NCBI RefSeq assembly: GCF_008831285.2
Contig: NC_045145.1
Coordinates: 21,202,802 to 21,266,801 of the forward strand
Direction of reading: 5' to 3'
Length of the DNA: 64,000 nucleotides
DNA from: Nymphaea colorata
Taxonomy: Eukaryota > Streptophyta > Magnoliopsida > Nymphaeales > Nymphaeaceae
A program made the translations under genes and the position numbers. Every line of letters starts with the position of its first letter. Position 1 is the first letter of the stretch. Shown one piece after another: positions 1-50,991 of this stretch. The notes beneath the pieces are model-generated. The model was given only the letters and a program-made list of their open reading frames with translations. It was not told where the DNA came from and did no database searches.

Positions 1-3000
1 AGATGTATAAATTTATGGGGTCCTCCTTGCAGGTGTAGGATAGGCAATAGTTTTTGCACGGGGATGTTGATCATCTGGTGACACTGTGACAGCTGCTATT
101 TTAAATTCTATATGTATCTTGGAGAACCATGCTGTAGCTTTGCTTGCCAGCTTTGATTCCGCTTCCACTGGTTAAGGGAAGAGTGCAGCTACAAAGCAAA
201 GTAAGAACTGGAAGTTGTCCAGCATTTTTGTGACAGGTATTTGGCCTTATTAATTTGCAGATGGACATAGATTTTTACCATCCAATTGTGCTCATTCAAG
301 CTCTCCTCCCCTTTGTTGTGTCCAGTTTCAAAGGTTTCCTCAAGGATCTGACATGAACAGATTATATGAATAGAAATTCCATTCTTTGATGTTCCTTTTT
401 TTATTTTTAATTTTATTGGAGGCAAGGATTTTTCATATGAAAGAAAGGAAAAAAAGAAAAGGAATCTGGACAGTTACGAAAAAGAGCAAGAAACTGAATG
501 GTAGAAACTTCTGGAAAAAAAGTAGACTTGTGTGATGGGCCACTAGATGTCATGAAGTGAACCTTGGCACCGGATGTATCCTTTAAATGTACACTGGATG
601 TATCCTTTAAATGTCAAAGGATTTTGCTAGATAGAGTTTAAAATTAAATTTAGTAAAAATCCATTTTTATTTGCCAAAACTTGGTGTAGCTTGTGTAGGT
701 TACATGCTTGGAAGGGCAAAAGTTACAACACCTTTTCTGTGTTGTGGTAAGGTATCTCACATTTCTGACAAGTCAGTCTTATTAGAAAAGGTTGATACGT
801 TTAGTTATTTGTTCGATACAAGAACTCGGAATGTATGTGATGTGCATCTTGAGATGGAGAGACGTCAGAATCATAGTCCATCTGCTGTAGTCTAAGGTCA
901 AACTACTGATCTTGTGGCATTTATCCTGTTTATCTTGGTCTTGCCTAATATTACATTCTATGAGTAATAATTTCATGTATGTGGTTTGGCATTCATCTTC
1001 TAGTTGTTAGTTAGTTGTGTTCTGTTTGTCAACGATTGATGATGCTAAAATTATGTGTCCAGTTTTTAATATTTGAATCCAGGCTTGTTCTATTCTGTTA
1101 TGTAATCTTATGAAGGTGTAATTTTGTGTTTTATTTTTATTTTGCTGACATTTTCGTGAATGAAGAGTTAACAAATGGGAATTGTCTGAGAGAATCATTC
1201 TGCAAATTTCATTTATAAATTTTCACTATGCAAAGATCATGACCAACATCAAAATTTCAAACTGTTTTCTGATTCTGCTCTAAGTTATGCAAGAGCACAA
1301 GCCCGTGTGTGTGTGTATCGTCCTGGAATCTGAAAGTAGGCCTAGTTTCTTCTTACACAAGGACTGGTTGAGAAGTGTTATGGTGAACTAAATGTGGATG
1401 AGTATCACAATTTGGGGTTTGGGTTGATGCATTTTCTCCATATTGATTGGACTTATATCCAAAGGTGTTGGCAGACAATGCACATCTGAAAGTATTGTGA
1501 TGGATGTCATGATGCTTCATCATTTCAATCAAAACATGATATCTTTAGCATGGTTTATTTTCTGAGAATTGGACCTTGATTATTTTACAGAATGTGAAAA
1601 ACATGTTTTTTGTTAATGAGTTATGTACTGTTTGACTTCAAAAGTTTTTTGAAATGCGTGCTTGTCTTTCACATGTATATGGTTCACAATCAATATGATG
1701 CCTACTCTACAAAAAATCGTGAACAAAACATGGAAATCATTGGTGTTTTTTTGCTGGGCATTTTTATGCCTTCGTTAGTTATAACTTGAATGGCATAAAG
1801 ATCCCAGGGGACAACTAGATATCTATCATCTAAATGCATGGCAATATCTTTCAAGTGAAGTGGAGTTTCGTGCTTCTAAAATAATTTCCAGAAGTTGTAG
1901 CATGTATAGAATAGCTATACGTAATTTCTGTTTCTTAAGTAACTGATCAATTCCAAGTCGTTGATTCCTTTCTGCTTCACAGTCAGATTATTCTCTTTAT
2001 GCTACCTTTTTCTGTGGTAGATGGTGCATTGAGCATATTTGAGTGGTGGAATAGGTTGTATATTGTTGGAAGAAGTGATTGGTATGGATATGATAGAGAC
2101 ATCGTCTGGCAGATGGATCCATTGATTCTGATTGTGGACGATTTCATGTAAACAACAATAAAAGTGAAATAGCAAATAAAAGTGGTCACCCTCAAGCTGG
2201 ATTCATGATACCCAATTTCAGGCTCATAAATGATTTGCTTAGATCATACCGTTGGTTAGTTCCACTGTAACACTTGTTCCTACAGGATAATGCATGGTTG
2301 GGATCTAGGGCTAATGGGGAAATGCAGTTGACGTAGTAGGTTGTTTATTTATCTTTTTACTTAGAAATTCATAAAATTAGTCCTGTAACATCGACTGGGT
2401 CAGATGTTGACAGAAATGTCAATTGGATACAATCCATTGGATTCCTTATGGCAAATTGTCAGGCATATATGTAAATAGAGCTTGGAGTTTTGTATTGGTG
2501 CAACCAGGGGATATACTCAATCTAAGCTGGTGTCCTGAATTGAACATTTGTCACACAGCCAGAACTCGATGGACGTATGGTTGCTGTTGGGTCTAATTTC
2601 TCAATGCAGTTGAAAGGTGGAAGTATATATGGAATATGCCTTATTTGTACTCAAAACTTGATTTCTATCTCCAACCTGTTTTAAAACTGACAGTTACCCA
2701 AGCCTGAACCTATTTAACTCTACTTGAACCTGGGTCTATTGAAAACTCATCTTGATTTAGACACTAATAACGTATGATGTATAGTTTTCTAGATGTATGT
2801 TGTTATTAGTTTTGAAGAATATCATTGTGGCATGCGTTAGACTGGTGAATCTGATGAAATCTTCATTTTGTAAATGAACATGGTTATTGTTAAACCACAA
2901 GCTGACTTGAACAAAATTTATTGTATCTGATTTACAGTTAATTATTGATCCATGATTGCTACTACTTATGGTTTCTCCCATTGGGCCTGAAGCCTTCACA

Positions 3001-3209
3001 CCCAAATATGTTCTTTCAAAAGTGCAGATCCCACATATTTGACTCTGCATAGGCAGAAACTATAGGAAGAGCACAAAAAGTGGCTTGTACATGAATCGGG
3101 TTGCAAAATTCTTGTTACCTAGAATAAGAAGAGCTGGAGTTCTCAGTGAAACCTAACACTTGGCTTTCCATGCTAAATCTAAGCTTTATGGCTGGTAATA
3201 CTTGATTAA
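1..3209. other. Intergenic sequence downstream of the SULTR3 gene, no recognised gene
   Basis: This stretch is AT-rich and has no exon-intron series that I can assign. The longest open frame of interest, 671-895 on the plus strand (74 codons), resembles no family I know and has no supporting neighbour exons. A short CA/GT run occurs near 1303-1317. The 3' untranslated region of the minus-strand SULTR gene probably lies just left of 3210. Confidence 0.5.
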
Positions 3210-6200
3210 TCATGGCTGTAGCTGTACTTTCAGCGGAATGGACAAAATTGCCTCATCTACAGTTAGGTACAGGCAGTCCGACCCAATTGCTGCCAATGAA
3301 TCTGAATCCTGCAGTTTCTCCATCACTTCTCCAATGGGATTCACTAGCAGTAGCTGTGTAGCACAGAAAATAATTCTTGTCAATGTTTGCCCATGTTTAG
3401 AGTAAACAAGTTTTTTTAACTACTTACAGTTATTGATTGGTTCTCTAGTGTCCTTTTCAGTTCTGTTAGCATGCCAAGGCCGCTAGTGTCCATAGCTGTT
3501 ACGGCTGCAATATAACAAGAAATTCCATTTAATAAAAGTTTTCCAGAAAACACTGTAGCTTTGGAGCCCATAATAACTAAAATGCCCATATAGACCTAAC
3601 CTTGTATCCGTAGTTAGTGAATAAGCGATTATGAACTGTACTTTTAATGGGTGATCTGGATTTACTCTAAAATATACGTCCAAAGTTTAATTACTCTTGG
3701 ATGGGAGGAGGGGAGGGGGAGAGCAAGCCCTATCAGATGATTAACCTTATTGAATTCACCACTTTCAAAGCTTGTCGGTTTCTATCTTTGCTAACTGAAA
3801 CGATATCGCGTAACAGCAGGATGGTTGTACTGATTCGGTGGTGTCCACAATTGGTCAAATTTGGGACTGGAGGACCTGGATTGTGCGTCTACTGCAGTGC
3901 AACGCTGAATTAAGATTGATATTAGGGAGGCGTTGCTACAGAGTGGAATCACAAAATTCAGAGTTGGCAACTGATACGCCCTAGGAGAAATCAATTTCAA
4001 TTTCGAAAGCAACATGATTCCATAGAGGCCTCTAACTCAAACGGTAGCTTTACGGAGAACATACCTGTCATTTCCAAGATCAAGTACTTGAGAATGTTCT
4101 CCCTCCTTGTTTTAATTCGCTCTTGTTCTTCGCGCACCCACCTCAAAACCCTGCAAATTCATCCATAAACACATTAGCACGACAGAGCAAAGACAAGCTT
4201 ATTTGATGAATGACCCAAGAGTTAAAAACTTAACTCACGATGGATCACCAGTTTGATTTGCGGTTTGGTTACTATTAATCGGACAGCTAGAGTCATCTGA
4301 CAGGCATCTACCAACTTGAGCGGATCATGTCATGATCCGGGCTTTTTTCATTTTACTCTACAGAGTGCGGAGCTTATACTGAACTTTTAAAATCTTTTAT
4401 GCTCACCTCTCGTGCAAGTAATTGGCATTAGCAAAATAAATCGGTGATTCGATTCCGACGATCAGGCATGACGGAATTCTCTTAGCGTCAGGGTATTGCA
4501 TGAAGTTGCGGTAGATCTTTGTGCCTGGCACATTCCCTAGAGTGGCTGTGTTGGGTCTCGTTACATGCAACAGGATCTTGAACACTGATATTCCGACCTG
4601 CAAATTCATGCATGAGCAACAGGAGGACGTGACAGAAATAGTCGATTGAACTTTTTAGATGCCAAGTTGATTATCACTAACTGCTAGGCTGAGGCCGCCC
4701 TGAACTGAGAAGAAGAGCACACCAAGAAACGCAGTCATGCAAGCCAAGAAATCAAGCTTGTCGACCTTCCATAGGCGGCCCATTGTCCTGAAGTCGATCA
4801 GTCCAACCACTGCTGTGATTATGATTCCTGCCAAGATCAAGTTTGGTGTGTAGTAAAAGAGTGGCATGAGGAACAGCAGAGTGACCAAGACTGTTGATGC
4901 CAAAACTATATTTGAAACTGCTGTTTTAGATCCGGAATTGTAGTTCACAGCTGAACGAGAAAAGGATCCTGTAAATTAGAAAAGCAGCATGGAGTTCAGA
5001 CCTTTAATCACATAATTTCTTCGGATTATGAAATTTTATGCAGCGAGATTTTGGTAAAATATTTACTGGAAATTCCAAACGAGTGGAGATATCAAAATGC
5101 CAAAATCAAGAATCAACTAGAGGATCACCTGTAGTAACGTAGCATGAACAGCAAGAACCAGCCATGTTCATCAACCCTATAGCCATCATCTCTTTGTTTC
5201 CATCAATCTGATATTTCTTCAAGGAAGCAAAAGTTCTTCCAACAGCAATTCCTTCCTGCAGTATCAGTGAACGTGCACATGACCAACAGAATACATAATA
5301 AAAGGTGCTAGAATGAACTCTTTTGTTTTTTTTTTTTTTTCCTTTCAACAGTTTAAATAATCTTTGGTTTATTTAACTTGGGTGCTGAATTTCATTTGGC
5401 ACTGTAAAAAATTGTTATCTGAAAGATGGCAATAGATTTTTTGGTTGCAAAAATATTGCTTGAAAGCTGTTTCAGGCGCTAGCATAAGATTCTTTAGTTA
5501 TTAATAGGAACTCTGGTTCTGTCTAATATTAATAAATAAAAAGGAACCTTATTATTAGCTGCGTCGTTGGAAGCAACAAAGATGAGATGCTTTATCATGC
5601 TTACAGTGAGAGAGAGTATGCCCGTAACAATGCCTGTTTTTATTGCGAGACCAAGCAGCGGACCCCGGAAGTAAAGCAAATTCGCTGAAGGTGAATTTAA
5701 CCCCTCATCCAAATGTCCTATCTGTTCACAGGGAGAGCAAGGATTAAACGCTAACATTAGCAGCAACAAAAGCAATAATAACTAGCAAAACAGAGTAACT
5801 ATACTTACTATTTGTATTCCATGATTCTGAGCTTTGAAAATGAAAACGAACAAGGTTGATGATATCACAGAGGCTAAAGGGGCTGCTGCTGACACCCAGA
5901 ACAGCTTTGGCTTTCTCAAGCTCTGAGAGAGAAAGAGAGAGAGAGATAAGATGATGCCAATAGGTCAGTTAGAGGACCAGGGTCCAAGAACTACACTCAC
6001 AATATGCCTTGCAGTTAGCAAGAGGAGCAGAAAGCAGGCACCCATAATGATAGTTTGCCATTCCCACTGCATTGAATTAAAAACAAAAGGAAAAAAAGGA
6101 TCACTTAAACGTTAAAAGTGAGTTACACAGTTCCACCAACAAAAAACTCTCTAAGACAGCCAATAAAGAACACGCATTGCATTAGGATATATTCTTCCCC

Positions 6201-6621
6201 TAAAATGTGAAGAAAACAACCTGAAACACTCCCCATAGTATTTTTGGAAAGCATAAACATCCCCCTACAAAATTTCTGATTCTGCCCCTAAGCTCAGTAT
6301 GTTCATGATGGAAAAAAGGAAAAAGTAATGTTGGAAGAGAAAGAGCAGAGTCCAAAACATGGGACATAAAATGCAACCGATGGAACCCATTAATAGTAAA
6401 AAATGAACGGCTTCTTAGACCATCAAAATTTGGATAGTGTAAAGATCAATTATTTTTACATAAATGATTTGAACTAAAGCATGATTTATATTAAATTAGT
6501 GTTTAGAAACACATTAAAAGGTTCACATTTTGTTTAAAATATTTTTTTAACATGAATTTAAAAGGTCTGCTTTTTATCCCTTACCTAAGGGTCTGGTATC
6601 TAGCAATACACACACACACAC

Positions 6622-6702
<81 letters not shown>

Positions 6703-8858
6703 GAATTATAGGGTAGACGATCTTACCTCATCTCTCCGCTTGACGACGGATTGGACGACCGGGACAATGTTCATCTGCGGGGCGAAGTGAACAATTCCAA
6801 GCAGGCCCTTGAGCTGTTGAAGGGAAACGATGATGGCTGCCCCTGCCATGAACCCCACTAGTGTTGGCCTCGACAAGAAATCCACTATGAACCCCAGCCT
6901 GCATCCATTACACCAAAAACTCTTTTCAATTATCTCTCTAAGTTTTTTTTTTCCCTTCAAGATTAAATGTTTCGATGAGGAAAAAAAGCCAAGGCTCCCA
7001 ACCCAGGCTGTTTCTACTTGTGAATAATTAAGTGAAAAGGGCAAAACATTAATGTAATGCAGAACAAATGCAAGTCTAAATTTTTGAAATCTGGATTTAG
7101 ATCCGTATGAACAAATCTATTTCTGAGTTTCCATTGGTAAGAGAGATCCTCAAACTTTACTTATCCAAAATTGTCGGCACTTTCAGCATGATAAAAAAAG
7201 AAGACGAAGAGAAACCGGTGGAAATTTTGAGCTCTTAATCCTAATGCACAGATTCACAATCAAACTCGATTAACTATTCATCCGGGAGGCCCAACACAGG
7301 AGTAGCACAACTTGACCTTTTTAGATTATCTGATGTGCATAGCGCCTTTAATTTTTACATTTTCAGAGAAGAAATAAGAGCTCTTAAGACGTGTTTGTTA
7401 TTTATTGCATAACTATTGACATGTTGGTGTCTGAATATATCTTACAAACTTGAGATACTTTCACAAGTTTTGGTGATCTCTCCAATATACCAATCCAAAA
7501 AAAGATGACATGAATTTGAAAATTCGAAGCATCCCCAGCATCCGACACAAATGCATCTCTCTCTCTTCCCCACCATAACTTGCTCTACGCTGATCTTGGA
7601 ATAAAGTAGTCTTCTGATGTCATGCATGATAATGATAGCCAGATCATGCATCATGAACATGTTCATGGGAAAATTACAGGAAATAGAAGCTGCCACTGTT
7701 AGTCCAAGAAGCAGCAGGAGGAGGAGAATGTGAATATGGAGTATCATGACCTGAGAAAGCCCAAGGATGCCTGGAAGACGCCGGCAAAAAAGGTGGCGGT
7801 GAAGGCCAACTGGAGGAAAAGCAGCGGCTGGTGGGCTGGGGAAACCGCCTCCCTGAGCATGGACCCCATCACCAGTGACGCGATCGACACCGGCCCCACT
7901 GCCAGATCCCTGGAGCTTCCCAGCACTCCGTAAATCAATGGTGGCACGAAGCTCGAATCTGCACGCACCCATAAAAACAACGGTGCCTCATTACTCCAAA
8001 GCTGCAATTCCTCTTCATAAATGCAAGCTTCGCCTGACTCTCTATCCCACTCACACACACAGAGGCAGGCACACACACTCATATTGTCTCGCCTTGGGGT
8101 CCTCCAAACTTTGATTTGGGTGTTCAAGTGGAAGAGTGGATCCTGAAATTTTCCTTTTCCTTTTGAATTTAAGAAAGAGCAGAGGAATGTGTGAGTTTGG
8201 AAGTTTAAATGTATTGGCTCTGTTCTTTTCTTTTCCTTTTTGGCTTTTGTGAAAGCAACAAAGAAAAGAATTTGTAGAGCAGTGTGTAAATGCATGCATG
8301 CACAAGAGGATCTGTGATCTACTTACAGAGTCCAATTATAGGAGGCAAATTTGCAAGCTTCGCATAGCTAATCCCCTGCACAATAAAAGGAACAAAGTGA
8401 TAAATAAACTCAAACGGTCATTGAAAACAAATTTAGAATGGGAAAAGAAGAACGAATGATCGCAGTGAAGTGGGTCGGTTTCAGTATTTGACCTGAGGAA
8501 TTGCTAAGCTAGCAATAGTGAGGCCTGAGACGATATCTGACTTGAAAAGGGAAAGGCTGTAGGTGGGTGCCCATTGAAGGATTGGGAAGAAGTACTGGAG
8601 AGCCAGAACCGAATTCCTCAGCCTGCTCTGGTTCTTGAACTGATGGAAGGGATCATCGGGGAAGAATGTCTCCGAGAAGCCATGCCTCAGCCTCTGGAAG
8701 GCCGTCTGCGAAAGGGGGAGGCACACTTTGTGGGTATCTGTGGAGGGTGAGGAGTCTGGCATCGGTACAGGAAAGGCTGCTGCTGCTGCTGCTGTTACTG
8801 CTCCGTCAAACACAGGAATGGAGGTGAAATCCTCCACTCTATTGGAGTTACCCACCAT
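3210..8858 (-). CDS. SULTR3;4: SULTR3;4/SPDT-like sulfate-transporter-family protein (13 exons, 667 aa)
   Basis: The exons on the minus strand, in coding order, are 8493-8858, 8327-8375, 7751-7958, 6727-6898, 6001-6066, 5809-5922, 5605-5721, 5129-5255, 4682-4968, 4407-4597, 4065-4150, 3428-3504 and 3210-3353. All junctions are GT-AG, and phases join to one open frame of 668 codons including the stop. The N-terminus carries the SULTR3-type [13 protein letters not shown] motif, followed by the SLC26/SulP membrane domain (about residues 90-520, with [16 protein letters not shown] and [11 protein letters not shown] motifs). A cytosolic STAS domain follows (about 540-650), with its conserved DTSG at residues 600-603. 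Residues such as [12 protein letters not shown] resemble SULTR3;4. Known biology: SULTR3;4 members (rice and Arabidopsis SPDT) are plasma-membrane transporters that distribute phosphate rather than sulfate. Assigning the same substrate here is inference. Exons 4-7 are also present as an inverted copy at 10002-12105. Confidence 0.93.
5418..7505 (-). repeat. Inverted-repeat arm 1 (SULTR3 introns 3-7 and exons 4-7)
   Basis: This is the arm within the functional gene. It is mirrored, reverse-complemented and nearly base for base, by 10002-12105. Homology begins inside intron 7 at about 5418 and ends inside intron 3 at about 7505, next to a run of seven A residues. It includes introns and even the compound CA/CT/TA microsatellite at 6607-6695, so the duplication was at the DNA level and not through a processed transcript. 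Confidence 0.93.
6607..6695. repeat. Compound microsatellite (CA)n(CT)n(TA)n in SULTR3 intron 4
   Basis: Consecutive CA, CT and TA dinucleotide runs lie just downstream of exon 4 on the coding strand. The same compound run appears reverse-complemented at about 10810-10915 in the inverted copy. Confidence 0.95.
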
Positions 8859-8972
8859 TCTCTCTCTCCCCCCTTCTCTTTCTGCCTGAATATTCGAGGC
8901 AGAGGCTGAGGAATAGAGAGGGTGAGTGAGAGATGAGAGGCAGGGGTGGAGAAGAAGAGGGTGGCGACGAAG

Positions 8973-8981
8973 TTTTTATAG
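8973..8981 (-). promoter_or_regulatory. TATA box of the SULTR3;4-like gene
   Basis: The minus strand reads CTATAAAAA about 115 bases upstream of the ATG at 8858. A start about 30 bases downstream would give an 80-90 base leader that contains CT-rich runs (near 8865-8885). No other TATA-like word is as well placed. Confidence 0.6.
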
Positions 8982-8989
8982 CGAAGGGG

Positions 8990-10001
8990 TTAAAAAGGCA
9001 GGGGGCGGTCAAGACAAGAGCGCTGCGGTGGTTGAATTTAGTGGGAGGACGTAGTGGCTATAGTTTGAGAATATTTTTTTTTCCCTAATATTTGTATGCC
9101 GATTTATTTTCTTACATCACAATAACAACAACAACAAGACCGACATTATTATTATTATTATTTGAAAAAAAATACCAGTAATAAAATGAACCAATTAATA
9201 GTTGAATATAATATTCATGTTTTAAGTGAATATAATGTGTCATCCTGCCATTTAAATTGAACCATCTTTCCTTGGTTTAGAGATGCTTCCATGCCTGAGT
9301 TGGAGTTGGCACAGGAGGTACATGTCCATGTCAATTGTTATGCATCTCCATGTACTTAACAAATAATCGTTCATAAGGGAAATTGTTAACTATTTCATGA
9401 CTATGAGAAATGAGTATGGTGACATAATCATGGAAAGCGTTAGTGTTGAGGCGATTTAGTTGAATTAATCGTACACGAATCAGCAAAAATATATTATTTA
9501 ATTGAATTTTTTAAAAGAAAAAGAGAATGAAAATTAAATATAATTAAAAATAAAAGTCCTTGAAAATATTTTTAATAGTAAAATAATGAAAAATATGTGA
9601 CATTATAACACGCGGAAATGCCCATTTTAGTCCATGAGTCTAGTTAGTTCATAATTCATGTTGGAAATGGTTCGATCACGCACTTCATTATTTTAGTGTT
9701 TGTGAAGAGAAATTTCTTTTACCTTTTCCTTTTGCCTGAAGAAGCCGACGGAGAAAATCTTTCTGAAAAAAGCAATGAATTACTTTACAGTTTGGAGCCA
9801 TTGGAACTTCGGCTAAAGAAATAAAATAACCAGAGAGATGCCGTCCACGTCCAGATATTCCACTCTCAGCTGGCTCTTTGGCGAGATCAAGAAATTGACA
9901 TGGCTTTTGCTTGGTGCCTCAACTGCCGCTGCTACTTCCACCCCACCTGATAAAGTCATTCCTTTCTTCTCCAATGGCAACGACGTATAGACTTGCACCT
10001 T
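8990..10001. other. Spacer between the SULTR3 promoter and the inverted copy
   Basis: AT-rich non-coding sequence with a short (TTA)n run near 9146-9162. A slightly richer patch at about 9830-9998 is open on both strands (minus-strand frame 9813-9998, 61 codons). It directly abuts the inverted copy and may be a fragment of another gene, but I do not recognise it. Confidence 0.4.
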
Positions 10002-10608
10002 TCTTTTTTTGGATTGGTATATTGGAGATCACCAAAACTTGTGAAAGTATCTCAAGTTTGTAAGATATATTCAGACACCAACATGTCAATAGTTATGCAA
10101 TATATAACAAACACGTCTTAAGAGCTCTTATTTCTTCTCTGAAAATGTAAAAATTAAAGGCGTTATGCACATCAGATAATCTAAAAAGGTCAAGTTGTGC
10201 TACTCCTGTGTTGGGCCTCCCGGATGAATAGTAAATCGAGTTTGATTGTGAATCTGTGCATTAGGATTAAGAGCTCAAAATTTCCACCGGTTTCTCTTCG
10301 TCTTCTTTTTTTATCATGCTGAAAGTGCCCACAATTTTGGAAAAGTAAAGTTTGAGGATCTCTCTTACCAATGGAAACTCAGAAATAGATTTGTTCATAC
10401 GGATCTAAATCCAGATTTCAAAAATTTGGACTTGCATTTGTTCTGCATCACATTAATGTTTTGCCCTTTTCACTTAATTATTCACAAGTAGAAACAGCCT
10501 GGGTTGGGAGCCTTGGCTTTTTTTCCTCATCGAAACATTTAATCTTGAAGGGGGGAAAAAAAAACTTAGAGAGAGAATTGAAAAGAGTTTTTGGTGTAAT
10601 GGATGCAG

Positions 10609-10804
10609 GCTGGGGTTCATAGTAGATTTCTTGTCGAGGCCAACACTAGTGGGGTTCATGGCAGGGGCAGCCATCATCGTTTCCCTTCAACAGCTCAAGG
10701 GCCTGCTTGGAATTGTTCACTTCGCCCCGCAGATGAACATTGTCCCGGTCGTCCAATCCGTCGTCAAGCGGAGAGATGAGGTAAGATAGTCTACCCTATA
10801 ATTC

Positions 10805-10903
<99 letters not shown>

Positions 10904-11918
10904 GTGTGTGTGTGTATTGCTAGATACCAGACCCTTAGGTAAGGGATAAAAAGCAGACCTTTTAAATTCATGTTAAAAAAATATTTTAAACAAAATGTGA
11001 ACCTTTTAATGTGTTTCTAAACACTAATTTAATATAAATCATGCTTTAGTTCAAATCATTTATGTAAAAATAATTGATCTTTACACTATCCAAATTTTGA
11101 TGGTCTAAGAAGCCGTTCATTTTTTACTATTAATGGGTTCCATCGGTTGCATTTTATGTCCCACGTTTTAGACTGTGCTCTTTCTCTTCCAACATTACTT
11201 TTTCCTTTTTTCCATCATGAACATACTGAGCTTAGGGGCAGAATCAGAAATTTTGTAGGGGGATGTTTATGCTTTCCAAAAATACTATGGGGAGTGTTTC
11301 AGGTTGTTTTCTTCACATTTTAGGGGAAGAATATATCCTAATGCAATGCGTGTTCTTTATTGGCTGTCTTAGAGAGTTTTTTGTTGGTGGAACTGTGTAA
11401 CTCACTTTTAACGTTTAAGTGATCCTTTTTTTCCTTTTGTTTTTAATTCAATGCAGTGGGAATGGCAAACTATCATTATGGGTGCCTGCTTTCTGCTCCT
11501 CTTGCTAACTGTAAGGCATATTGTGAGTGTAGTTCTTGGACCCTGGTCCTCTAAGTGACCTATTGGCATCATCTTATCTCTCTCTCTCTTTCTCTCTCAG
11601 AGCTTGAGAAAGCCAAAGCTGTTCTGGGTGTCAGCAGCAGCCCCTTTAGCCTCTGTGATATCATCAACCTTGTTGGTTTTCATTTTCAAAGCTCAGAATC
11701 ATGGAATACAAATAGTAAGTATAGTTACTCTGTTTTGCTAGATATTATTGCTTTTGTTGCTGCTAACGTTAGCATTTAATCCTTGCTCTCCCTGTGAACA
11801 GATAGGACGTTTGGATGAGGGGTTAAATTCACCTTCAGCGAATTTGCTTTACTTCCGGGGTCCGCTACTTGGTCTCGCAATAAAAACAGGCATTGTTACG
11901 GGCATACTGTCTCTCACT
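10609..11918 (+). pseudogene. Truncated SULTR3;4 copy: exons 4-7 only
   Basis: Four exon-like blocks sit at 10609-10780, 11457-11522, 11601-11714 and 11802-11918, with the same lengths (172, 66, 114, 117) and flanking AG and GT sites as source exons 4-7. All four stay open. Visible amino-acid changes are A to V in exon 5 (RHI context), F to L in exon 6 and H to R in exon 7 (IGRLDEG). There is no start codon exon, no exons 1-3, no STAS domain and no obvious promoter, so this cannot encode a full transporter. It would cover only a central group of transmembrane helices. The high similarity including introns points to a recent event. Confidence 0.88.
10810..10915. repeat. Compound microsatellite (TA)n(GA)n(GT)n in the SULTR3 copy
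   Basis: This is the mirror counterpart of 6607-6695 and is slightly longer, which is the main length difference between the two inverted arms. Confidence 0.92.
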
Positions 11919-12105
11919 GTAAGCATGATAAAGCATCTTATCTTTGTTGCTTCCAACGAAGCAGCTAATAATAAGATTCTTTTTTATTTATTACTATTAG
12001 ACAGAACCAGAGTTCCTATTAATAACTAAAGAATCTTATGCTAGCGCCTGAAACAGCTTTCAAGCAATATTTTTGCAACCAAAAAATCCATTGCCATCTT
12101 TCAGA

Positions 12106-13913
<1,808 letters not shown>

Positions 13914-14015
13914 GATATGACTCAAATTGAAGAAATGACATTCGGTTGGATTTGGATTTAGAATTAAAGCAATATCCAAATCGGATACAGATTCATCTTG
14001 AGAATTAATTTTCAG

Positions 14016-15052
14016 GTAGCGTTTGATGGTCAGAAATATGTTTTTGGAAAGAAGTTTCCAGAAATTTATTTCTGGAACTGGTGGATGAGAAGTAAAATTC
14101 CATATTTCCAAAACCATCTTGTGTTTGTTAACTTGAAAATTATTTTTCTAGAAACAAATTTCATCGTAGAATCGATGGAAATGGTGCTTTAAAACCTTTG
14201 CAGAGGAGGGGGAGGAAGAAAGGAGGGAGGAGGAACAAGGGAAGGAGGGAGGAGGAAAGGAGGAGGAGGCGGAAGAAGGGAAGGAGGGAGGAGGAAGGAG
14301 GAAGGAGAAAGAGGGAGGAAGAAGGGAACGAGGGAGGAGGAAGAAGGGAGGATAAAGAGGGAGGAAGAAGGGAGGAGAAACAAGGGAGGCGGCAGAGGGC
14401 TCACCGGTTGCACCTCCAGAAACACCCCAAACCCTTGCAGAGACTGTTTCGCAACACCTGCAGCTTGCCGACCGGTGTCTTTCCTGGTGGTGGTAGCAGA
14501 GTTCCTTTTCTTTTTTAGGTCTCACCGCGACAGAGAGGAGCATCTGCCGGCTGTCTCCCTCACGTTGGTGACAGCTTCTTCCTTGCACCGTAAAACGAGC
14601 CACGCTGGTTCCAGAGGCAGCCGAGTGAGGAGGAAGACGGTTGACCACCCCCCCCCCCACCCACTCACCTCCTTCCCTTCTTTCTCCTCCTTCCTCCTTC
14701 CTCCTCCCTCCTTTCTTCCCTTCTTCCGCCTCCGCCTCTTTCCCTCCTCCCTCCTTCCCTTCTTCCTCATCCTTTCCTTCCCTTCCCTTCCCTTCCCTTC
14801 TTCCTCCTCCCTCCTTTCTTCCTCCTCCCTCCTTCCCTTGCGATGCACGACCGTGTCCTAACGGTCCAAAAAAACAAATTCTGGAAATATGTTTCCACCC
14901 CTCCCAGTATAAATATGTTTCTGGAAACATTTTTCCGGAATTGACCTGAATGGTTGAAAAAATAATTCCGCGTTTGTTACACTAGAAATATTTTGAAAAC
15001 TAGAAAAAATATTTCTGGTTCAACAGAGAAATTCTCGCCTGTCAAACACCCC
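14016..15052. mobile_element. Candidate foldback/TIR element with polypurine and polypyrimidine arms
   Basis: The left end reads GGTAGCGTTTGATGGTC. The right end, reverse-complemented, reads GGGGGTGTTTGACAGGC, an imperfect terminal inverted repeat. Inside, a GGA/GAA-rich arm (about 14197-14395) faces a complementary CCT/CTT-rich arm (about 14650-14840), separated by a GC-rich core of roughly 250 bases. Sub-terminal sequences also pair (AAATATGTTT and TTTCCAGAAA words on both sides). No transposase is encoded. I could not confirm target-site duplications. Confidence 0.5.
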
Positions 15053-17505
15053 CTAAATAAAGGGTTACTCTACCATCTGACCAAAGTTGTATTTCTAAAA
15101 GAGATCGTGGATGATAAAAACAAGAAAAAAAAACATACACCTTTTTTCTTCTTTTTTTCTCTCTTAACTATTTATCATGGTGGATCGGACGATGCTGTTT
15201 ATATGGCTGGGTAACTATAAAAAGTTAGCTTCACCATTCAAATTATATACCATTCATATATGGGCCTCAAACTCCCTCCACCAAGCAACTGGTCTAGTCT
15301 AATTTATATCTAGTGTTCCATAAACATGCCACCTCCCTCATGTGATCTATGGAGACTTCAATTGTCTTCGTTCAAACTATTGAAATTTATAAAATTAAAA
15401 AAGATCAATTAAACTGAATTTATTTATAAAGTTTTTAAGGATTAATGATTTTAGCTTTCCCAAATTAGAAAATCCAACCTAAAAAGTAGGGCTGTCCATA
15501 AGCCAAGTAGAGCTCAAGTTGGGTCAGCTCTAGCTTGAACTCGACTCGTTCTCAATTACCTTATTTAGTTGCTACTCCTTTATCTATTATTTTATTGTAA
15601 CTTCACATTCACTATGTGATCGAGCATAATCGAGTTTAAGCAAGTCGAGCTCTTACAGCTCAAGTACGAGCCAATTAATATTCGAGTGTATATTTGAACT
15701 TGAGCTCTTGAGTCGAGTTTTGGAGAGCAAGTTCAAATCGAGTTCAAGCTGGTTCGACTTGTCATACAACCCTTCTAAATATCAAAATTTCATTTGGCGA
15801 CTATAATTACATATATTATAGGTGACATAGTTGGGTGATAGATTTTACTTGTGTATGGTTTTGCATTTGAATTTAATCTGCGGCCAAAAAAAACCAACTC
15901 TAGGTGGACATTAAACTAGTCTGACAGAATTCAGTTTCAGAAATGTCCTAGTCCAAATCTGAACCATGTTCTACCTGATAGGGACGAGATTGGTAAAGCT
16001 TAAGTCAAAGCTTTTCCTACCTAAAAAGAAAGATGCTTTGTTCCTAAGATGAGTCACTTTTTCTTTTCCTTTTCTTATTTTAAAAGCTCTTGGGGCCAAT
16101 TTCGATTCTTTGAGCCAACAAATAGAAGGGAGAAAAGGAAGTACAACCACTCACTTCCAGCTTAGGTTCCATTGGAGAGATTAAAACTGCGGTCCATGCA
16201 GGATCTTGATCTGAGGCAGGAGGAAGTGAGCATATGCTTTCTTCTTTTCAGCTTCACTCTGGTGTCCAGACATCCCTGACCGATGCTTCACTTTGGAAAA
16301 TTTGACGTCATCACCTTTTCTAGCTTTGTTAGGTTAAGAACAATCAATAATTTTATGTTCTTTATGAGAGATTGCATTTAATGGACCGATTCTTGGCTAG
16401 AATCTTACATGTGGGAGTGACTTTCGCAGTTTTGCTAGTCTGCCGAAGAAGGGAACATTTCTGCCATTGCCCTTTAATTCTATGTAAAGCCAAATTGCTC
16501 AACTGTGGCCAAAGTGTTACTAAGTTCTCATGTATATATTCTTGGTAGTTTGATTGGTGGTAGCCGGTAGGCATGCTATGGTTCATCCATGTGAAGTGAG
16601 AGACCTTTAAGGACTTATAAGAAGGTTATTTAATTGATTAATTGACTTGGTGCCTAACTGTTCTCTTTTTTGTTTTTTTTTTTATTAGTAGAACCAAAAT
16701 TGCTACATGCGGGTTAGGGTATGTTTGCCAGGGTGTTAGGTTGGTGTCAAAGTCGGTTCAACACTCAAACATGAGGTGTAAGCTGGAGGATTCTAACCCA
16801 CTCCTCCATCCTTGACTGTAGCTAGGTTCAATCGAGCTCTAGACCGAGCCCAGTTCGTGTGCAGGCTCAGCCATCATCCGGTGAAGCCTTCATCTCCTAC
16901 CAGCGACTCCATCGGCGACACCGACTGTATCACTCGCCCGCGCCTTCAGCTGGGCGTTTTTTTGCAACAGGAGACGTCGGCACTCTGCTGGACTTCGGAC
17001 AGGTTCTTTTCCGTCACTTGAAAACTGCCGGCAGCAGACACCTTCTGACCTGATCCAGCACTGGATTTCTCACTCTCTGCAACTGAAATACCCGGGAATT
17101 GGTTTTCATTCCGTGGTCATTGTGCTGGAATTCCAAGTTAGTCTTGAGTGGGTACGTCTTCCTTAAGCTTCCTATTGGTTTGATTCAAGGAGAGTTCTTT
17201 TGTTTTTGGTTTAGCATTACACTTGAGTTGCTACGCTCTTGTAGTTTTCCGGTGGCCACTGGCCTAAGATCCGGCTGCAAGACTTTAGCATCTCCATTGC
17301 TCTATTTTTAGTGGTTGTTTTTCTGTATTTAGCCTAGTTTCTTTTAATTGTGTTGTTTGACCTCACATTAGTTAGCATTCCTTGTAGTAGGATTCTTCCT
17401 TGGGTTTGTCTTTCTTTAGGTTTGTCTTAGGCGCCTCAAGAGATCTTGGGTATAGAATCGGCTGTAGGAAAGCGTCTAGACCTATTCCGGAGCGAGGTCC
17501 TATTA
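15053..17505. other. Intergenic DNA with dispersed repeats
   Basis: 15480-15780 is another CTCGAG/GAGCTC-rich repeat. 16800-17460 is more GC-balanced than its surroundings and has short open frames on the plus strand, but no conserved domain that I recognise. It could be a retroelement leader or a gene fragment. Nothing else is supported. Confidence 0.4.
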
Positions 17506-18499
17506 GTTATGCACTTTATTCGGTAATTTTTCTGAAAAATGTGGTCCTTATTAGAAAATTACAAAAAAAGTGATTACTTTTCTAAGGTTTTAGCAAAATT
17601 TACAGCCGAGAAAAGGAGATTTGTGAAAAAAAGAAAACTTGATCTTATCAAAACATAAATGGAACATATAACCATTCCATGTGAACATTGTCCTACATGA
17701 AAATTTTTCAAAGATCTTAACAACCTCATTCACATCCGGTTGTCATACTATCGCTTGCTTTAGTTATATATATATATATATATATATAGCTATGGGATGG
17801 TTTGATGAGATTCACTAGATGAGATTGTGAGGTTAGTGCCACATTTCCATCACTGCATTCAACGAATATCTTTAGAAGAGAAAAATTGGAAAGTGAAGCT
17901 AGAACCAACTTACTGAAGCATTTCAGTAAGGTCTAATCAACAATTTATAAGCTAATTAGCTTCTTTAAGGATTTTAAATAAATTCAGATTTAGGTAATCT
18001 CGCCTGTGAACTTGTGATTTGTGATCCTTGAATTTGGCGAGCTCGGTAGTCGATCCTATAGTTAGGGGCAGATCTAGACATTTTTATTAAGATGATGAAC
18101 CATAGTTTTAAATTTTTCAAGGGGGCTGAAATTTAATTTTTCAAACTTCTTATATAGTTAAATACCTTTTTTACAATTACATGTTTTTTCTTTTTTTTCT
18201 TTTTAATCTGAAGGAAGGCCATGGTTCTATTGCACCCCGCTGGGCTCTGCCCTATGTTGAAAAACCAGCCAATAGCCATAGCATAGGACAAATTGAGTTC
18301 CTGGTGGAGTGAATCCGAGCGATCTGATGCTTGGTTAGGCTGGCACTTGGCAGGCCCGTGCAAGTTCGGTCCTTAGTTGGATTTCGGTAGACAGTATTCC
18401 TATTAACTATAAACAGTAGCATGCACGACACTCGAATAAAAAACATACTGACCAATGTCTTGAAACAATTTCAGACCATAGTTACAGAAAACAAGTTTT

Positions 18500-18800
18500 T
18501 CTCTTAAAATATAATAAATTAACTAGCGGTTTAAAACTAAAAAAAACAAGTTTTTTTTGAAAAAAAATGTTAAAAACAAACAAAACGTGTTTTTTTTTTT
18601 TCAGTTTTTTTAACGTCAAACAGTTTTTTTTTTATTTTTTTTATTTGTTGCAAATTTATTTATATGTGTTACTAGTTTCTCACTTATTTTATTTTTTCTC
18701 TATTTTTGGTTTTTAAAATTTTTAAAAAATTTACCATATTATTTTTAGTTTTTTAAACTCGCCGTTTTATACCCCAAAAAAACCTCACCATTTAAAACTT
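18500..18800. repeat. A/T-rich dispersed repeat, copy 1
   Basis: Runs of T with TTTTTGAAAA and GTTTTTTT words. An inverted relative lies at about 21920-22250. Both are within material present in block A but absent from block C, so they probably inserted after duplication, or were lost from C. Confidence 0.4.
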
Positions 18801-19830
18801 CATGATGCTATTTGTGACTATAGTTTGGACCAGAGGGAAGAGAGAAAGATAGCTTTTGCGTCTCACAAATTGCTGGTGCAGCCGCTAAACCATGATGACC
18901 CTGCCACTGTTCTTGGACGTGAAAGTTTTCGATCAAGCTCTGTAATTTCTTGTGGAGGAGGGAGACTCTGATGGGGAGGATTGGTGATGGGGATCTCATG
19001 GTGGGGCAAACGGAGATTTATACACAAGAAAAGAGAAGAAGAGGAGGAAGGCAAGAAGCATGTGCATTTCTTGATCACGCCAACGATCTGACTGAGAGTG
19101 GAATCTCTGGCCGTGGACGGCATCTCTGGTTATTTCTTTAGTTGAAGTTCCCATGGCCAAAGTAGGAAAGATGGGAAAAAGATGCACAAAAAAAGGAGAA
19201 GTCTCTTTCTTTCAGTTCTCACATTGCCAGCTCTTACTTCCCTGAACTAACAATCTCCACTAAAATTTGGGTTGAATTTGGAAACTTGACTCGATTGGAT
19301 CGATAATTGATTAGACTCATGCCCTTTTATAGGGGTTTCCGCTCGACTTGAACTTGTTCGAAAAAACTTGAAGCGATCTCAAGCTTAATTATATTTAAGC
19401 TATTTTTTATTTTCACAAAACTTCAATTACATAATTTCAATATCTAGCACTACTGGGAAAAACCTGTAAGCTAGACATGACTTGCATAAATCAAACTATT
19501 ATAATATAAACTGCTATAATTAATCTTGCCTACTTTCCGTGTTTCCTAAGCAATTGATAATGGCTTCATCGCTGAGAGCGTAAAGTATTCTTAAAGCAAT
19601 GTAGCTAACAAAAAGTATCACTCGCTCATTTGTCTCTCCTTTCATCATACAATTAAGTTTCGACAACATTCATTCTTGAAAATGGCCTTTAAACATTCGA
19701 TGTTGCAGTAATAAAGCCCAGCTAACTTAATTATTAAGAAACCAAAGGGCAGTAGTTGCACATTCCAATTTCTGTCAAATAATTTAATTTTGAGAACAAC
19801 ACATTTATTTGTATGCCCGCAAAAAAGCTT

Positions 19831-20174
19831 AAGGGGCGTTTGATGAGGCCAGAATTATGGAATTTCAGAATTAAAATATTCATTTTTGATGAAATTAGAA
19901 TTACACTAATTATCAGTAGAATTATGATTGCAGAATTTTAGAAATGTTTATGTCTCTTTAGAGAACACGTCATGAAGGTTTTAATTCGTCCATTTTGGCA
20001 TTTTAATTTGTGTTTCATCAAACACATCATTTTCAATTTGAAATGAAAATCCAAACTGTCAAATATAAAGGGGAACTAAACCTCCAATTTTAATTCTAAT
20101 TCCAGTTTAAGGCGAAATTTTGTTTCTACAATTTTAATTCTAAAATCGAAATTCGAGGCCGTCAAATGCCCCTT
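19831..20174. mobile_element. Small TIR element (MITE-like), block A copy
   Basis: The ends are AAGGGGCGTTTGATGAGGCC and GGCCGTCAAATGCCCCTT, which pair as an imperfect terminal inverted repeat. The interior is AT-rich with repeated GAATT/AATTC words and no coding capacity. Its equivalent in the other block is 46114-46448, so the insertion predates the segmental duplication. Confidence 0.65.
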
Positions 20175-20843
20175 TCAAGTGCAACTAAATCCTTTGTAAA
20201 CAAAACAAATAAACTTCGCTTGATAATCAAATAAAGAAAATGTGCTTTTTGAACTTAAACATGTGACCTAAAGGAGAAGCACTGTTTGGGCTATACTCAA
20301 GGATGTTAGCAATAGATTTTTTTTTTTTGGTGAGGGATAACTTCTTTGTTAAGGAAGGGATTCAGGCTATTGTGGGAGGGGTGTGTATCTCCCTACTAAC
20401 CTGGATTTAGGGATGTCGACAGATCTGATTCGAATCAGATATACTCATAATTGTATCCAGTTTTTTGAACATTCATATACTCGGATTCAAGTACAGATGA
20501 AGAAAAATGATATCTAATCTGAATCTATTTTCAGAATTTGAATCCAATTTTTATATTCATATCTTAATCCTAATCCAAATTTGAACCAGATCTGGCTAAT
20601 TTTCTAAATGCAAGAGCATTGGGTATAAGATATTTGTCTAGAACTAAATTTAATATGAATTTAAATCCGATCAGATATTTATGAATATCTGAATTCAAAT
20701 CCGAACCTCAGATGTTATTTTACAAATCTGAATCAGAATTGATTTTTCAATCAAATCTTATATATATATTCTTAGATTTTTTTAATTGCTTGGTCATATC
20801 ATATGACCAATTCAAATCAGATATATTACCATTCTCACCTAAA

Positions 20844-21125
20844 TTTGGCATCAGGCCGGCCCGGCCCAACCCGATTAAATTAAAAAATATATTTTAATAT
20901 AAACTATTATATAAATATAAATAATTATGATAAAATATTATAAATATATATATATATATATATATGTAAATTAATAAAAAAAATTTAAAACTAACTTATT
21001 AGGCCCGAATCAAGCTTATCGGGCCCACCTGGGCCGGCCCGATAACAAGTCAGGCCGGCCCAAGCCTTAGTTAGGCCAGGTACCGAATTATCGACGGTGG
21101 CCTGACCCAGTGCCCAGTCTTATTT
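20844..21125. repeat. GGCCGG-bounded dispersed element with TA-rich core, block A copy
   Basis: GC-rich ends built of GGCCGGCCC words flank an AT-rich middle with a (TA)n run at about 20946-20965. Relatives lie at 47135-47390, 24085-24330, 50120-50310, 34390-34666 and 35000-35233. Confidence 0.55.
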
Positions 21126-21919
21126 CCCACCATATTTTAAATGTCAGTTGACGCCTTTGTTGGAGAATTTTCAAGAACCCGGTGCTCTCGTGGGCAATTT
21201 TAATATTATGAGAGAAGAGTCGAACAAGACTGGCAGGCCGCGAGATTTGAACAGGTGCAAATTGTTCTTCGGCTTTCTATTGAGCTGCAATCCGCGACGG
21301 CATTAAAAGTTGTGCTATGTAAGATTTTTAATTTAAACAAACAAATGATCTCAATAGCACCAATCTCAAATCAAAAGTTATATAAAAAATCATGGATTTA
21401 AGATCAAACCGGAGGAGATCTAACCTTAAATTCATGAATTTGAGATCCCCGGTGCTCTCAAATTACTATAAATTTGAGAACTGAGAACAACAAAGGCAAC
21501 ACTTGTGCAGTTTCTTCCTTCTTTCTTTGAAGGCAAGCAACAAGAAACAAACGAAAGCGTGTGCATGGATGTTAAATTGCATGTGATCGTCATTTTCCAC
21601 AATGAATTTTTTCCATGGTTTCCAAATTAATACATGGTCAGGATCAAGAAGACTTTGTCTGTGCCCATCAAACACAATAAATTTCGTGAAATTGACCTTA
21701 TCTTATACATACACCTGAACGCTTGTGCCCATCAAACAAAATAAATTTCTTATGTAAGTTTCTTCCTTCTATTTGAAGGCAAGCAACAAGAAACAAACAA
21801 AAGCGTCTGCATGGATGTTAAATTGCATGTGATAGTCATTTTCCACATTGATGTTGCAACCACAAAGAAATTTTCCATAGTTACAAATAAAGTCTCAGGA
21901 GTTTTAAAGGGCAGTGTTT

Positions 21920-22250
21920 TTCTAGTGGCAAGCTTAAAAAAAATGAGAAAAATATAATAAATTTTAAAAAACTAAATATGGGGAAAAAATACAATAAGTG
22001 AAAAACTAATAACACAAACATCACAAAATAAGTAGATTTGTGACAAATAAAAAATATAAAACAAAAAAAAAACTATTTGGCATTAAAAAACTGAAAAAAA
22101 GTGAAAATAGTGAAAAAGGCGTTAAAAAAGCATTAAAACCGTCTTTTTTTCGGTTTTAATGTTTATTCTTCAAAAAACACGTTTTTTGAAGTTTTAAATG
22201 ATCATTTAATTTATGGCATTTTTTTTTTTAAAGAACGCGTTTTGTGTGCC
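21920..22250. repeat. A/T-rich dispersed repeat, copy 2 (inverted relative to copy 1)
   Basis: A-rich counterpart of 18500-18800, ending in CACGTTTTTTGAAG-type words. It sits between two partial copies of a GTGCCCATCAAACA-containing segment (21658-21740 and 22245-22370), suggesting insertion together with a local duplication. Confidence 0.4.
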
Positions 22251-23167
22251 CATCAAACAGAATAAATTTCTTGCGGCCAAGGAATTGACCTCATCTTATA
22301 GATACACCTGCACGCTTTTTCCAAGAGGACTTATCCAACGACACGATGTCCTTCTTATGACCATCAAACACGTAAGGAAGAAAACATCTTGAAGGGAAAA
22401 ATAAGGTGGAACAGTTGGAAGCAATTGACAGCAAACGGGCTAATTATTAAAAGAAAAATGGAGAACCATCGAGACTATCAATTTCCCCATTATTTATTAT
22501 AATTTATTGAAAAATTCCGTTGGACTTCTAAACTTGCAGCGCCTAACGGATTAACATCCTGAAACTTCAAATCCAAGCTTATACATGCAATCTTTATTCT
22601 AGCCTTGTACATGCAATCTTAATTTGAAACTCGTATTTAATTCTTGGATGAGATTATTTGAATATGTAAATAAGATTAACTTATAAGTGCTGGTGGAGTG
22701 GTTGAATATTGTATAGCCATTGATTTAAAATAACCTTTTGCCCCCTCTGAAATTTTAATAAATAAGTAATACACCCTCTAAGTTTCGATAAGATGCAGCA
22801 AGTTTTTGTAATTTGTACCTAACACAAGCTCATAAAAATGTTACAAGTCGCAAGTAGTTAATGTTTGAAGAAGCCATTTGTCAACATCAACATATTTAAG
22901 AACACATTGTTACTGTCTTATAAATCTACTGCCGTTCATAAAACAATGTTCTATTAATTTATTGGATCCATTTTTTTAGCAGGTTGACCGGACAATAACA
23001 GAATATTCCTATTTATAAGGCTAGGCATCGGGCTGTCTTGGGCCAGCCCAAGACTCCACAAAGTCATGTAAGGCCGGACGGAAGTCTTTGCTGACGGTCC
23101 AAACCCAACCTGCTTGAATATATAGATCAGCTGTCATTTTGCGAAATGCAAGTCACAGTTTATGGTT

Positions 23168-23209
<42 letters not shown>
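23168..23209. repeat. (TA)n microsatellite, block A
   Basis: About 21 TA units. The block C counterpart is at about 48990-49040, with a different length. Confidence 0.9.
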
Positions 23210-23210
<1 letters not shown>

Positions 23211-24531
23211 CAAGCCCCTAGTACCCAACTCGGGTTAGTTGGTCTACCAATTTTTTTAATCAGGCAGACCCGAGAGTCAAATAACCAACACACGCGCATT
23301 ACCCAGCTACCATCGAATACTCAGCCCATTGCCCACCCTTAATTATTTAATTAAAATTTCATTTCAGGCCCACTCAGTCAAATATGATAAATAAATTAAA
23401 AATTCAGGTATGACTAGTTAAATTTCCAACGGCTATACCCCTTTGAAGTTATGTATATCTTCTTTCTCCACGAGGAAATTCTTGAGGACCAAGCAAGTCA
23501 ATGGTCTTATAAAATTATCTTCAAATGGATTGGACGTGGAATTGACTCAGCATATATAACTTTTTTTCTAGTTTTGGTCATCAGGACTCAAGGGTAGCTG
23601 GGAACCACACATGTCAATTTAACTGTGTTTAATTATCTCAACGGTAAGATCTACAGTGATATAAGATCTTAAAAGTTAGGCTTTTAGATTTGAAATTAAT
23701 CCTTAATTTCTAAGTTCCAACAAAATTTTGCAATCTTTTGGTTGAAAGCAATGTTGTGAAGTGCATTGAAGCCAAGAGATGCGTTTAGCCTACGAGGGAA
23801 GATGAAGAACAATGTGGCGATATGATGTGCAAATATCATGTTTTGAAATATATAATATCTTTAAAAATATAAAAAAATGGTCAAGTAAAAATGATTTGAC
23901 CAACTAACTTATATGAAAAGCTACTTATGTGTATTCTTCTATAAATTGAAACTAACTATAGAATATGGTTCAAACTTGAAAAACCTAAAACAAAGGAAAA
24001 AGCAAAGTTTGTCAAAAGTGCAATAGTATTTTGTGAAAATTTAAATTTTAAGGCTTCAAAGTTAGTTTTTTTTTTTTTTTTTTGACCTGGTTGGCCCGAT
24101 AATTTATCGGGCCGATCCAAGTGAGCCCGATAATTGGTATTTTAAAATGTTTTATTAATATACATATATATATATTTGTATAATATTTTATTATAATTAA
24201 TTATATTTATATTTTATTTTATATTAACAAAATATTTCTAAATTTAATGGGGCGGAGCTGGAGTTTTCATAGTCGGGTCGGTTCGGGCCCAATTTTTGAA
24301 TGTCGGTCCGGCCCATGCCCAGGCAGCTTGGTAGTGCGCGGGTCCTCGTATTGCTTGCTCTCTCTCTAAGTTTGATTTCTTAAATTTATGGTGCAATTAC
24401 TTCGAAAGCATCGGTGACTTTAATCTGGTCTAAAGCATCGGTGACTTTAATCTGGTCTGACATCCTTTTACCGTCGGAAATTTCTCTCCCTTCTTCTTCC
24501 TTCATTCCTTCCTTCGCAATCTTTTATGTTC

Positions 24532-24539
24532 TATAAACA
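24532..24539 (+). promoter_or_regulatory. Probable TATA element of Nudix-A
   Basis: TATAAACA follows a CT-rich stretch (CTTCTTCCTTCATTCCTTCC) that is conserved at 31684-31709 and 50430-50456. The first coding ATG is about 1.1 kb downstream, so a 5' leader exon and leader intron are expected. Leader-like transcribed sequence probably runs from about 24565 to a possible donor at 24985 (CTCAG then gtggca). Confidence 0.45.
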
Positions 24540-25649
24540 TCAGGCATGAGCAGCTTCGAATTTGTATCTGAAGTTGAAGAATTTCAAAGGTGGTCTTCTA
24601 AGTTTCAACTTTTATGCGTTGGACGTCGATCTTTTCCTGCTCCGGCAACTCGTTAACTCAAGCTTTTCGTTGGTTGATCATTGCCTGCTCTCTGGCGCTT
24701 TTAGGTTTCTCTCCTTCTATCTGTTTCTCTATAATTTCTTTATAACTTTTGACGCTGCCATACGTACCTTCATCTCCTTCACCCGCTCCGTTGCGCTTGA
24801 CGTGCCTCCTCCTCCTGTTTTCCTCATGCTTTTCTTTCAGATCGCCGCATCCTTCCCACCGTTCCTTGTTTGGAATCTGGAAAGAACGCCTCTGATCTTA
24901 AAGGCAATATGTCATTTGCTCGTCCATCTATTAATCTCATCCAAATATCTTCGACGAGCCTCGTCTTTTTGTCGCTAATGCTCAGGTGGCAATTGTTTTT
25001 TTTTTTTATTCACGATAGATGTTTACACACACACATACACAGCCAGGTGTCATACAAATAGTTCGTAAGTTTCGAAAATAGCTAGGCAAAATATATCTGG
25101 AGAGATCAACTAGCTAACATATATAGCAGTTACTAACCATGGTTCACACCGATACACTTCTAAAGAGGTACAACATGCCTACGTTGAGTAAAGACAGATA
25201 CTTACAGAGAGAGAGAGAAAAAGAGAGATTACTTTTTCTTTTTTGTTAATAATACATTAGTGGAATGACATTATTTCTTAATAAGTATGTTTTTTGAACA
25301 TAATCATCAAATTATGTTTTTTAACATAATCATCAAATTACATACGATTATTTCATCAAAAAGGGTTTTAGATATGGTTATGAGACGTTAATATCATAAC
25401 AATGTATCTTCAGATTATATTCGAGTTATTACGATGCTTTGTCAGCTTAATCAACACTAATGAATTATTATTTGGAAAAATCATTAAATGCGTGCAAGTG
25501 TGGACAAATTTTCATTTACATGAAAATTGAAAAGGTGCCATATTGTTTTGGATATAGAAATTCAATTTGGTTATCTTTTTTGTTCTTTTTTTTGTTATCA
25601 TAATCTAGCAAGCGATCCAAGGTCCTTTGAGGTCATATACGGTGGTAGG

Positions 25650-44249: not shown

Positions 44250-44525
44250 TTCTTATGCACTTTGTTCGGTAATTTTTCTGAAAAATCTTGTTCTTATTAG
44301 AAATTACAAGAAAAAGTGATTACTTTTCTAAGGTTTTAGCAAAATTTACGGCCGAGAAAAGGAGATTTGTGAAAAAAGAAAACTTGATCATATCAAAACA
44401 TAAATGGAACATGTAACCATTCCATGTATGTGGCAGGCAGGCCTTGAACATAGTCCTGCAAGAAAATTTTTCAAAGATCTTAATAACCTTATTCACATCC
44501 GGTTGTCATACTATCGCTTGCTTTG

Positions 44526-44528
<3 letters not shown>

Positions 44529-44610
<82 letters not shown>

Positions 44611-44612
44611 GA
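44529..44612. repeat. (TA)n(CA)n microsatellite, block C
   Basis: About 35 TA units followed by a few CA units. The block A counterpart at 17765-17788 is much shorter, so this locus has expanded or contracted since the duplication. Confidence 0.93.

Positions 44613-48981: not shown

Positions 48982-48989
<8 letters not shown>

Positions 48990-49040
<51 letters not shown>
48990..49040. repeat. (TA)n microsatellite, block C
   Basis: Counterpart of 23168-23209 in block A, followed in both by CCTAGTACCCAA. Confidence 0.9.

Positions 49041-49042
<2 letters not shown>

Positions 49043-50958: not shown

Positions 50959-50991
<33 letters not shown>

Follow-up and report, generated by a model that had tools for sequence, protein, structure and literature searches.

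An inverted partial copy of a gene, lying close to the start codon of that same gene, raises the question of whether the pair can give rise to double-stranded RNA and to silencing of the intact gene. Such an arrangement is found at a SULTR3;4 locus in the stretch of 64,000 nucleotides of Nymphaea colorata DNA analysed here (the window), whose own contig is referred to as C8. Judged from its sequence, the locus is a candidate natural inverted-repeat/antisense silencing locus. A limited literature search found by title no publication about it, and we make no claim that the locus is unpublished.

An intact SULTR3;4 gene and its inverted partial copy

The thirteen minus-strand exons of the gene (8858 down to 3210) splice via 12 GT-AG introns into an open frame of 667 residues. 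The encoded protein contains the Pfam domains PF00916 (Sulfate_transp) and PF01740 (STAS), and the solved protein most closely related to it is the rice SULTR-like phosphorus distribution transporter (SPDT) Os06g0143700, with an E value of 1.1e-279. The name SULTR3;4, given without a tree of the other SULTR3 genes, fits these domains and this closest solved relative, and phosphate transport by the C8 protein is putative. The gene is constrained, with a dN/dS of 0.225 against a paralogue on a second contig, C1.

Self-BLAST of the window aligned positions 10002-12105 with 7505-5418 on the opposite strand, over 2106 columns, with 97.626% identity and a bit score of 3594. These coordinates are exactly those of the first-pass annotation, which had described two near-identical reverse-complement arms of ~2.1 kb, introns and a microsatellite included, and the score is far beyond chance; therefore, the inverted repeat is real and the observation is confirmed. 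The copy lies in reverse orientation upstream of the gene, 1.1 kb from the SULTR3;4 start codon (Table 1). Outside the microsatellite, the two arms differ at 29 of 1989 sites, namely, 6 of 469 in exons and 23 of 1520 elsewhere (1.5%), whereas the biggest length difference between them is that of an (AT)n(AG)n(GT)n microsatellite, which is longer in the copy. The further claim that exons 4-7 of SULTR3;4 were recently copied in inverted orientation is also supported, and the duplicated block, which includes the microsatellite, runs from intron 3 to intron 7.

Table 1. Features of the SULTR3;4 locus and its right flank, in window positions.
Feature	Position	Strand	Basis
Intact SULTR3;4/SPDT-type gene, 13 coding exons, 667 residues	3210..8858	-	Spliced model, protein and domain matches
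Gene arm of inverted repeat: exons 4-7 with parts of introns 3 and 7	5418..7505	-	Self-BLAST, arm alignment
Upstream region still common to C8 gene and C1 paralogue; similarity stops near 9374	8859..9374	-	C1 comparison
Spacer; pieces match C8:21171130-21171859 in opposite orientation	9375..10001	.	Genome comparison
Copy arm of inverted repeat	10002..12105	+	Self-BLAST, arm alignment
Copy of exon 4	10609..10780	+	Arm alignment
Copy of exon 5	11457..11522	+	Arm alignment
Copy of exon 6	11601..11714	+	Arm alignment
Copy of exon 7	11802..11918	+	Arm alignment
Two bases common to copy and MMP unit at right joint	12104..12105	.	Arm and flank alignments
5' upstream region of matrix-metalloproteinase (MMP)-family unit, piecewise similar to C8:21191524-21195534	12104..16805	-	Genome comparison
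Start of MMP reading frame (signal-peptide part), cut at 12104; 8-bp gap common to unit at C8:21191524	12107..12180	-	Alignment
TATA motif CTCTATATAAGAGC, candidate core promoter of antisense RNA	12225..12238	-	Alignment of MMP units

A paralogue on C1 and the age of the copy

A second intact SULTR3;4 gene, which splices to 666 residues, is present on contig C1 of the same genome, and the two proteins differ in 21 of 667 columns. Most of window 1-9374, together with 3.5 kb leftward, matches C1 piecewise at 83-96% identity, and only ~500 bp of upstream sequence are held in common by the two genes. Within the 30 kb of C1:31361000-31390999 we found a single set of these exons and not the inverted copy; one further match to 174 bases of intron 4 lies upstream of the C1 gene, with 82% identity and in direct orientation. 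Two smaller features of this comparison may be recorded, namely, that intron 3 holds ~660 bp of other sequence in C1 where C8 has ~160 bp, and that the point on C8 from which similarity to C1 starts is marked by an MMP-like fragment, at C8:21198774-21199284.

Outside exons, C8 and C1 diverge at 177 of 3034 well-aligned sites (5.8%), and the 3' flank (1-3209) diverges by 3.4%. Since gene and copy differ by much less than the former value, the inverted copy is younger than the C1/C8 duplication. C8-C1 divergence showed no difference between the arm and the other introns (82/1315 versus 95/1719, p 0.43). The rice SPDT, when used to polarize three amino-acid differences, failed by having a third residue at each of them, and C1 was used instead. 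With C1 as outgroup, all but one of the 29 arm changes could be placed, 16 on the gene and 12 on the copy (p 0.57). By direction, 14 of these 28 are toward G or C, 5 away and 9 neutral, a lean that might stem from biased gene conversion between the arms, though the numbers are small. Gene conversion was not detected from the longest difference-free run between the arms (360, permutation p 0.11), a test that says little because the run spans the left-out microsatellite.

Spacer, joints and origin of the rearrangement

The spacer between the two arms, 627 bp in length, is a local duplicate: its positions 9787-9999 match the partner region, C8:21171130-21171859, at 97%, and the rest does so at 77% and 87%. 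A 50-residue frame in the spacer (9839-9988) was discarded, since the partner, as read from DNA, does not preserve it in frame. At the joints, ~4 bases are in common on the left and 2 on the right, and the two flanks of the copy derive from different places. Microhomology-mediated joining or template switching fits as the mechanism, and the copy may have arisen at very short common sequences after the C1/C8 duplication.

Capture of the Pack-MULE type was considered and rejected. First, a search for terminal inverted repeats between 8859-10101 and 12001-14000 gave a best inverted match of 12 bases (E 0.24). Second, the longest word common to the two 41-base junction edges measures 5 bases, and the target-site duplication of Pack-MULEs is ~9 bp. 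The best 25 of 288 inverted pairs, by length, are mostly microsatellite.

The surroundings of the locus, C8:21171000-21266801, that is, the window plus ~32 kb leftward, form a patchwork of local duplications. Large direct duplications of ~80-90% identity occur at window 17507-32345 and 44253-56222, and an example outside the window is C8:21196557-21198317, which matches 21185009-21186742 at 95%. The Pfam family Nudix_hydro was matched above cut-off by frames near 25.6 and 40.2 kb, which a frame near 51.6 kb resembles. The open frame at window 37101-37643 (+) may resemble the end of an NRAMP-type metal transporter, a reading for which Pfam gave no support in this frame.

A protease-gene 5' region faces the copy

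The right flank of the copy (12106-12480) matches at least 16 places, itself included, all of them on C8. One lies 23 kb leftward, at 97% identity, and at least 14 lie between 22.036 and 22.139 Mb. Eight of these cluster places were examined, five rows of flank matches being left out. In seven of the eight, the query itself included, a near full-length MMP match follows directly after the flank (78.6-100%, E 4.5e-155 to 0), and in the eighth the match is partial, with 49% identity over 130 columns. One MMP frame, the only one in which openness was checked, carries the Pfam domains Peptidase_M10 and PG_binding_1. This MMP gene cluster with its common upstream region occupies C8:22036333-22139000.

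In each of four regions compared, the leftmost flank match starts at 12104. Of the MMP unit, the window retains the beginning of the reading frame and the upstream region with its TATA motif; from 12104 on, its place is taken by the SULTR fragment, and the MMP coding part is missing. In the orientation of the window, such a gene would have minus-strand orientation and lead into the SULTR copy. The TATA motif is found in all nine aligned sequences, seven of which have it in the exact form, and in the core region the identity of the window to the other eight ranges from 187/194 to 149/188. Frames in the flanks gave no Pfam match, and a long perfect (TA)n run is located in the MMP upstream region, at window 13748-13911.

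The MMP unit may have been damaged before it met the SULTR fragment. The 8-bp gap in the signal peptide is common to the window and to the truncated unit at C8:21191524, so that both may descend from a damaged gene, and the unit behind the promoter, whose coding part is absent, may already have been a pseudogene.

Predicted antisense RNA and its targets

The transcript of the gene covers one arm, and therefore its own promoter alone cannot give a hairpin or an antisense RNA. Read on the plus strand, the copy would give sense RNA. Antisense RNA needs minus-strand transcription that enters from the right, which is where the MMP 5' region stands. That the DNA history is the one told above, and that this region is the likeliest source of any antisense RNA, we regard as probable, a judgement that leaves silencing aside.

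If working, the MMP promoter would make a minus-strand RNA that starts at ~12205, by rule of thumb from the position of the TATA motif, and in which an MMP leader precedes antisense SULTR3;4 sequence, from exon 7 back to exon 4. Such an RNA would be able to pair with the C8 SULTR3;4 mRNA and, less perfectly, with that of C1. Of the 449 21-mers in the joined exons of the copy, the C8 mRNA contains 339 and the C1 mRNA 224. The predicted RNA could also fold on itself if reading on into the gene, and dicing of such double-stranded RNA would lower SULTR3;4 output. Two features expected of a silencing locus were found here, namely, long near-identical inverted copies (97.6% over 2106 columns) and intact targets in the C8 gene and its C1 paralogue; the MMP 5' region, with a TATA motif and the correct direction, is a candidate for a third, a promoter that would read one arm in antisense or cross both. 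Antisense transcription in some tissue is possible but less likely than not, and silencing with an effect is unlikely. C>T and G>A together account for only 4 of the 28 placed changes; the arms show no C-to-T excess, and thus no footprint of long methylation. The constraint on the C8 gene, and the like divergence from C1 of the arm and the other introns, also count against silencing.

The interpretation in the first-pass annotation, that the arrangement could yield antisense or hairpin RNA, is partly supported. The layout stands, with a candidate MMP promoter facing the copy, but the promoter of the gene would be insufficient alone. The term trans-acting siRNA, in its strict sense, names the wrong class; TAS loci produce microRNA-triggered phased siRNAs, and natural inverted-repeat or antisense loci such as soybean I, PAI, VIM4-VIM2 and Mu killer are nearer. 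The second SULTR3;4 on C1, the fusion to a protease gene and the spacer as a local duplicate are new with respect to that annotation.

Alternative explanations

The alternative that survives best is that the same rearrangement left a fused MMP region that is dead, or whose RNA ends early, and a copy that decays without effect; our opinion on it is evenly divided. The truncation of the MMP unit, with its common gap, is consistent with such an outcome, as are the even spread of changes over gene and copy and the many other local duplications in the stretch. So are early AATAAA motifs on the minus strand, at 11992/11988 (before any exon) and 11361 (before exon 4), which could end an antisense RNA early. 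Against this, the TATA motif and the core are kept: in the 194-bp core, a single change is assigned to the window lineage, as against 6 to the unit at C8:21191524 (p 0.125), and in the distal part each has 6. The comparison of core with distal changes gives p 0.17, the counts include time before the fusion, and the difference is suggestive only.

An effect on SULTR3;4 of a different kind would follow if RNA from the MMP region crossed copy and spacer into the gene, thereby providing an extra, differently regulated SULTR3;4 5' end. The MMP region and the gene do point in the same direction, and the upstream sequence that the C8 gene retains in common with C1 is short; however, ~3.4 kb with four AATAAA motifs lie in between, and the RNA would include both arms, which makes this supply of a promoter very unlikely. 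We consider an assembly artefact, in which the inverted arm was produced by a misjoin, perhaps with a second haplotype, slightly less probable again. Abundant local duplicates are hard to assemble and a difference of 1.5% could be allelic, but the arms differ at 29 sites and in microsatellite length, and a simple fold-back misjoin would not leave the copy bordered by two different sequences. Finally, plus-strand transcription of the copy into a spliced fragment, peptide or decoy hardly merits belief, because the AG acceptors (4/4), GT donors (4/4) and 469 open exon bases retained in the copy could be due to chance at so little divergence, the gene-copy dN/dS of 0.33 rests on 3 and 3 changes, and the right flank read in frame after exon 7 yields no known domain.

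Comparison with known silencing loci

The soybean I locus is the nearest known case. According to one report, the trait there could not be put down to the inverted CHS repeat by itself; an inversion brought the promoter of a subtilisin gene, with four exons, next to the CHS cluster and gave a chimeric subtilisin-anti-CHS1 antisense transcript, which was amplified (PMC6418295), and siRNAs are reported in another paper (PMC3804491). At both loci, a rearrangement has brought the promoter, putative in the present case, and the 5' portion of a protease gene up to an antisense segment of a gene duplicated in inverted orientation, and intact homologues could serve as targets. They differ in that soybean has a CHS cluster, subtilisin and a transcript, whereas the present locus has one four-exon fragment, MMP and a predicted RNA.

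Other systems share parts of this layout. First, Arabidopsis VIM4-VIM2 and PAI1-PAI4 are inverted gene copies with a spacer, and VIM4-VIM2 is head-to-head, as here; siRNAs appeared at VIM4-VIM2 once a deletion had shortened the spacer and transcription crossed it (PMC13213937). There, however, two genes are joined by read-through, whereas here a fragment is backed by a foreign 5' region. Second, maize Mu killer is likewise a partial inverted duplication beside a host gene, but its target is a transposase, and antisense RNA in silencing plants is a feature of Mu killer. Its effective antisense RNA is reported to start inside the locus, read-through from the flanking gene being sense (PMC3440606), which counts against the proposal that MMP is the driver. 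Third, the inverted-duplication model derives microRNAs from target genes that have been copied in inverted orientation and so supply the raw material (PMC3237417). A potential target gene is duplicated in this way here too, although the arms are still 2.1 kb long and near-identical. An Rfam search of window 1-17000 gave no family at gathering score.

Taken as a whole, the claim that a protease promoter captured by chance drives antisense SULTR3;4 RNA, and that in some tissues this RNA silences both loci of a phosphate-distribution transporter, would make the locus an independent instance of the soybean I layout, here on a nutrient transporter and in another plant; we regard it as more doubtful than silencing with an effect as such.

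Implications

If the copy is transcribed, the locus would be a natural silencing locus caught young, and the presence in one genome of the donor gene, a copy-free paralogue and the relatives of the promoter would make promoter gain directly testable. If it is silent, it would be a clear case of a local rearrangement joined at very short common sequence.
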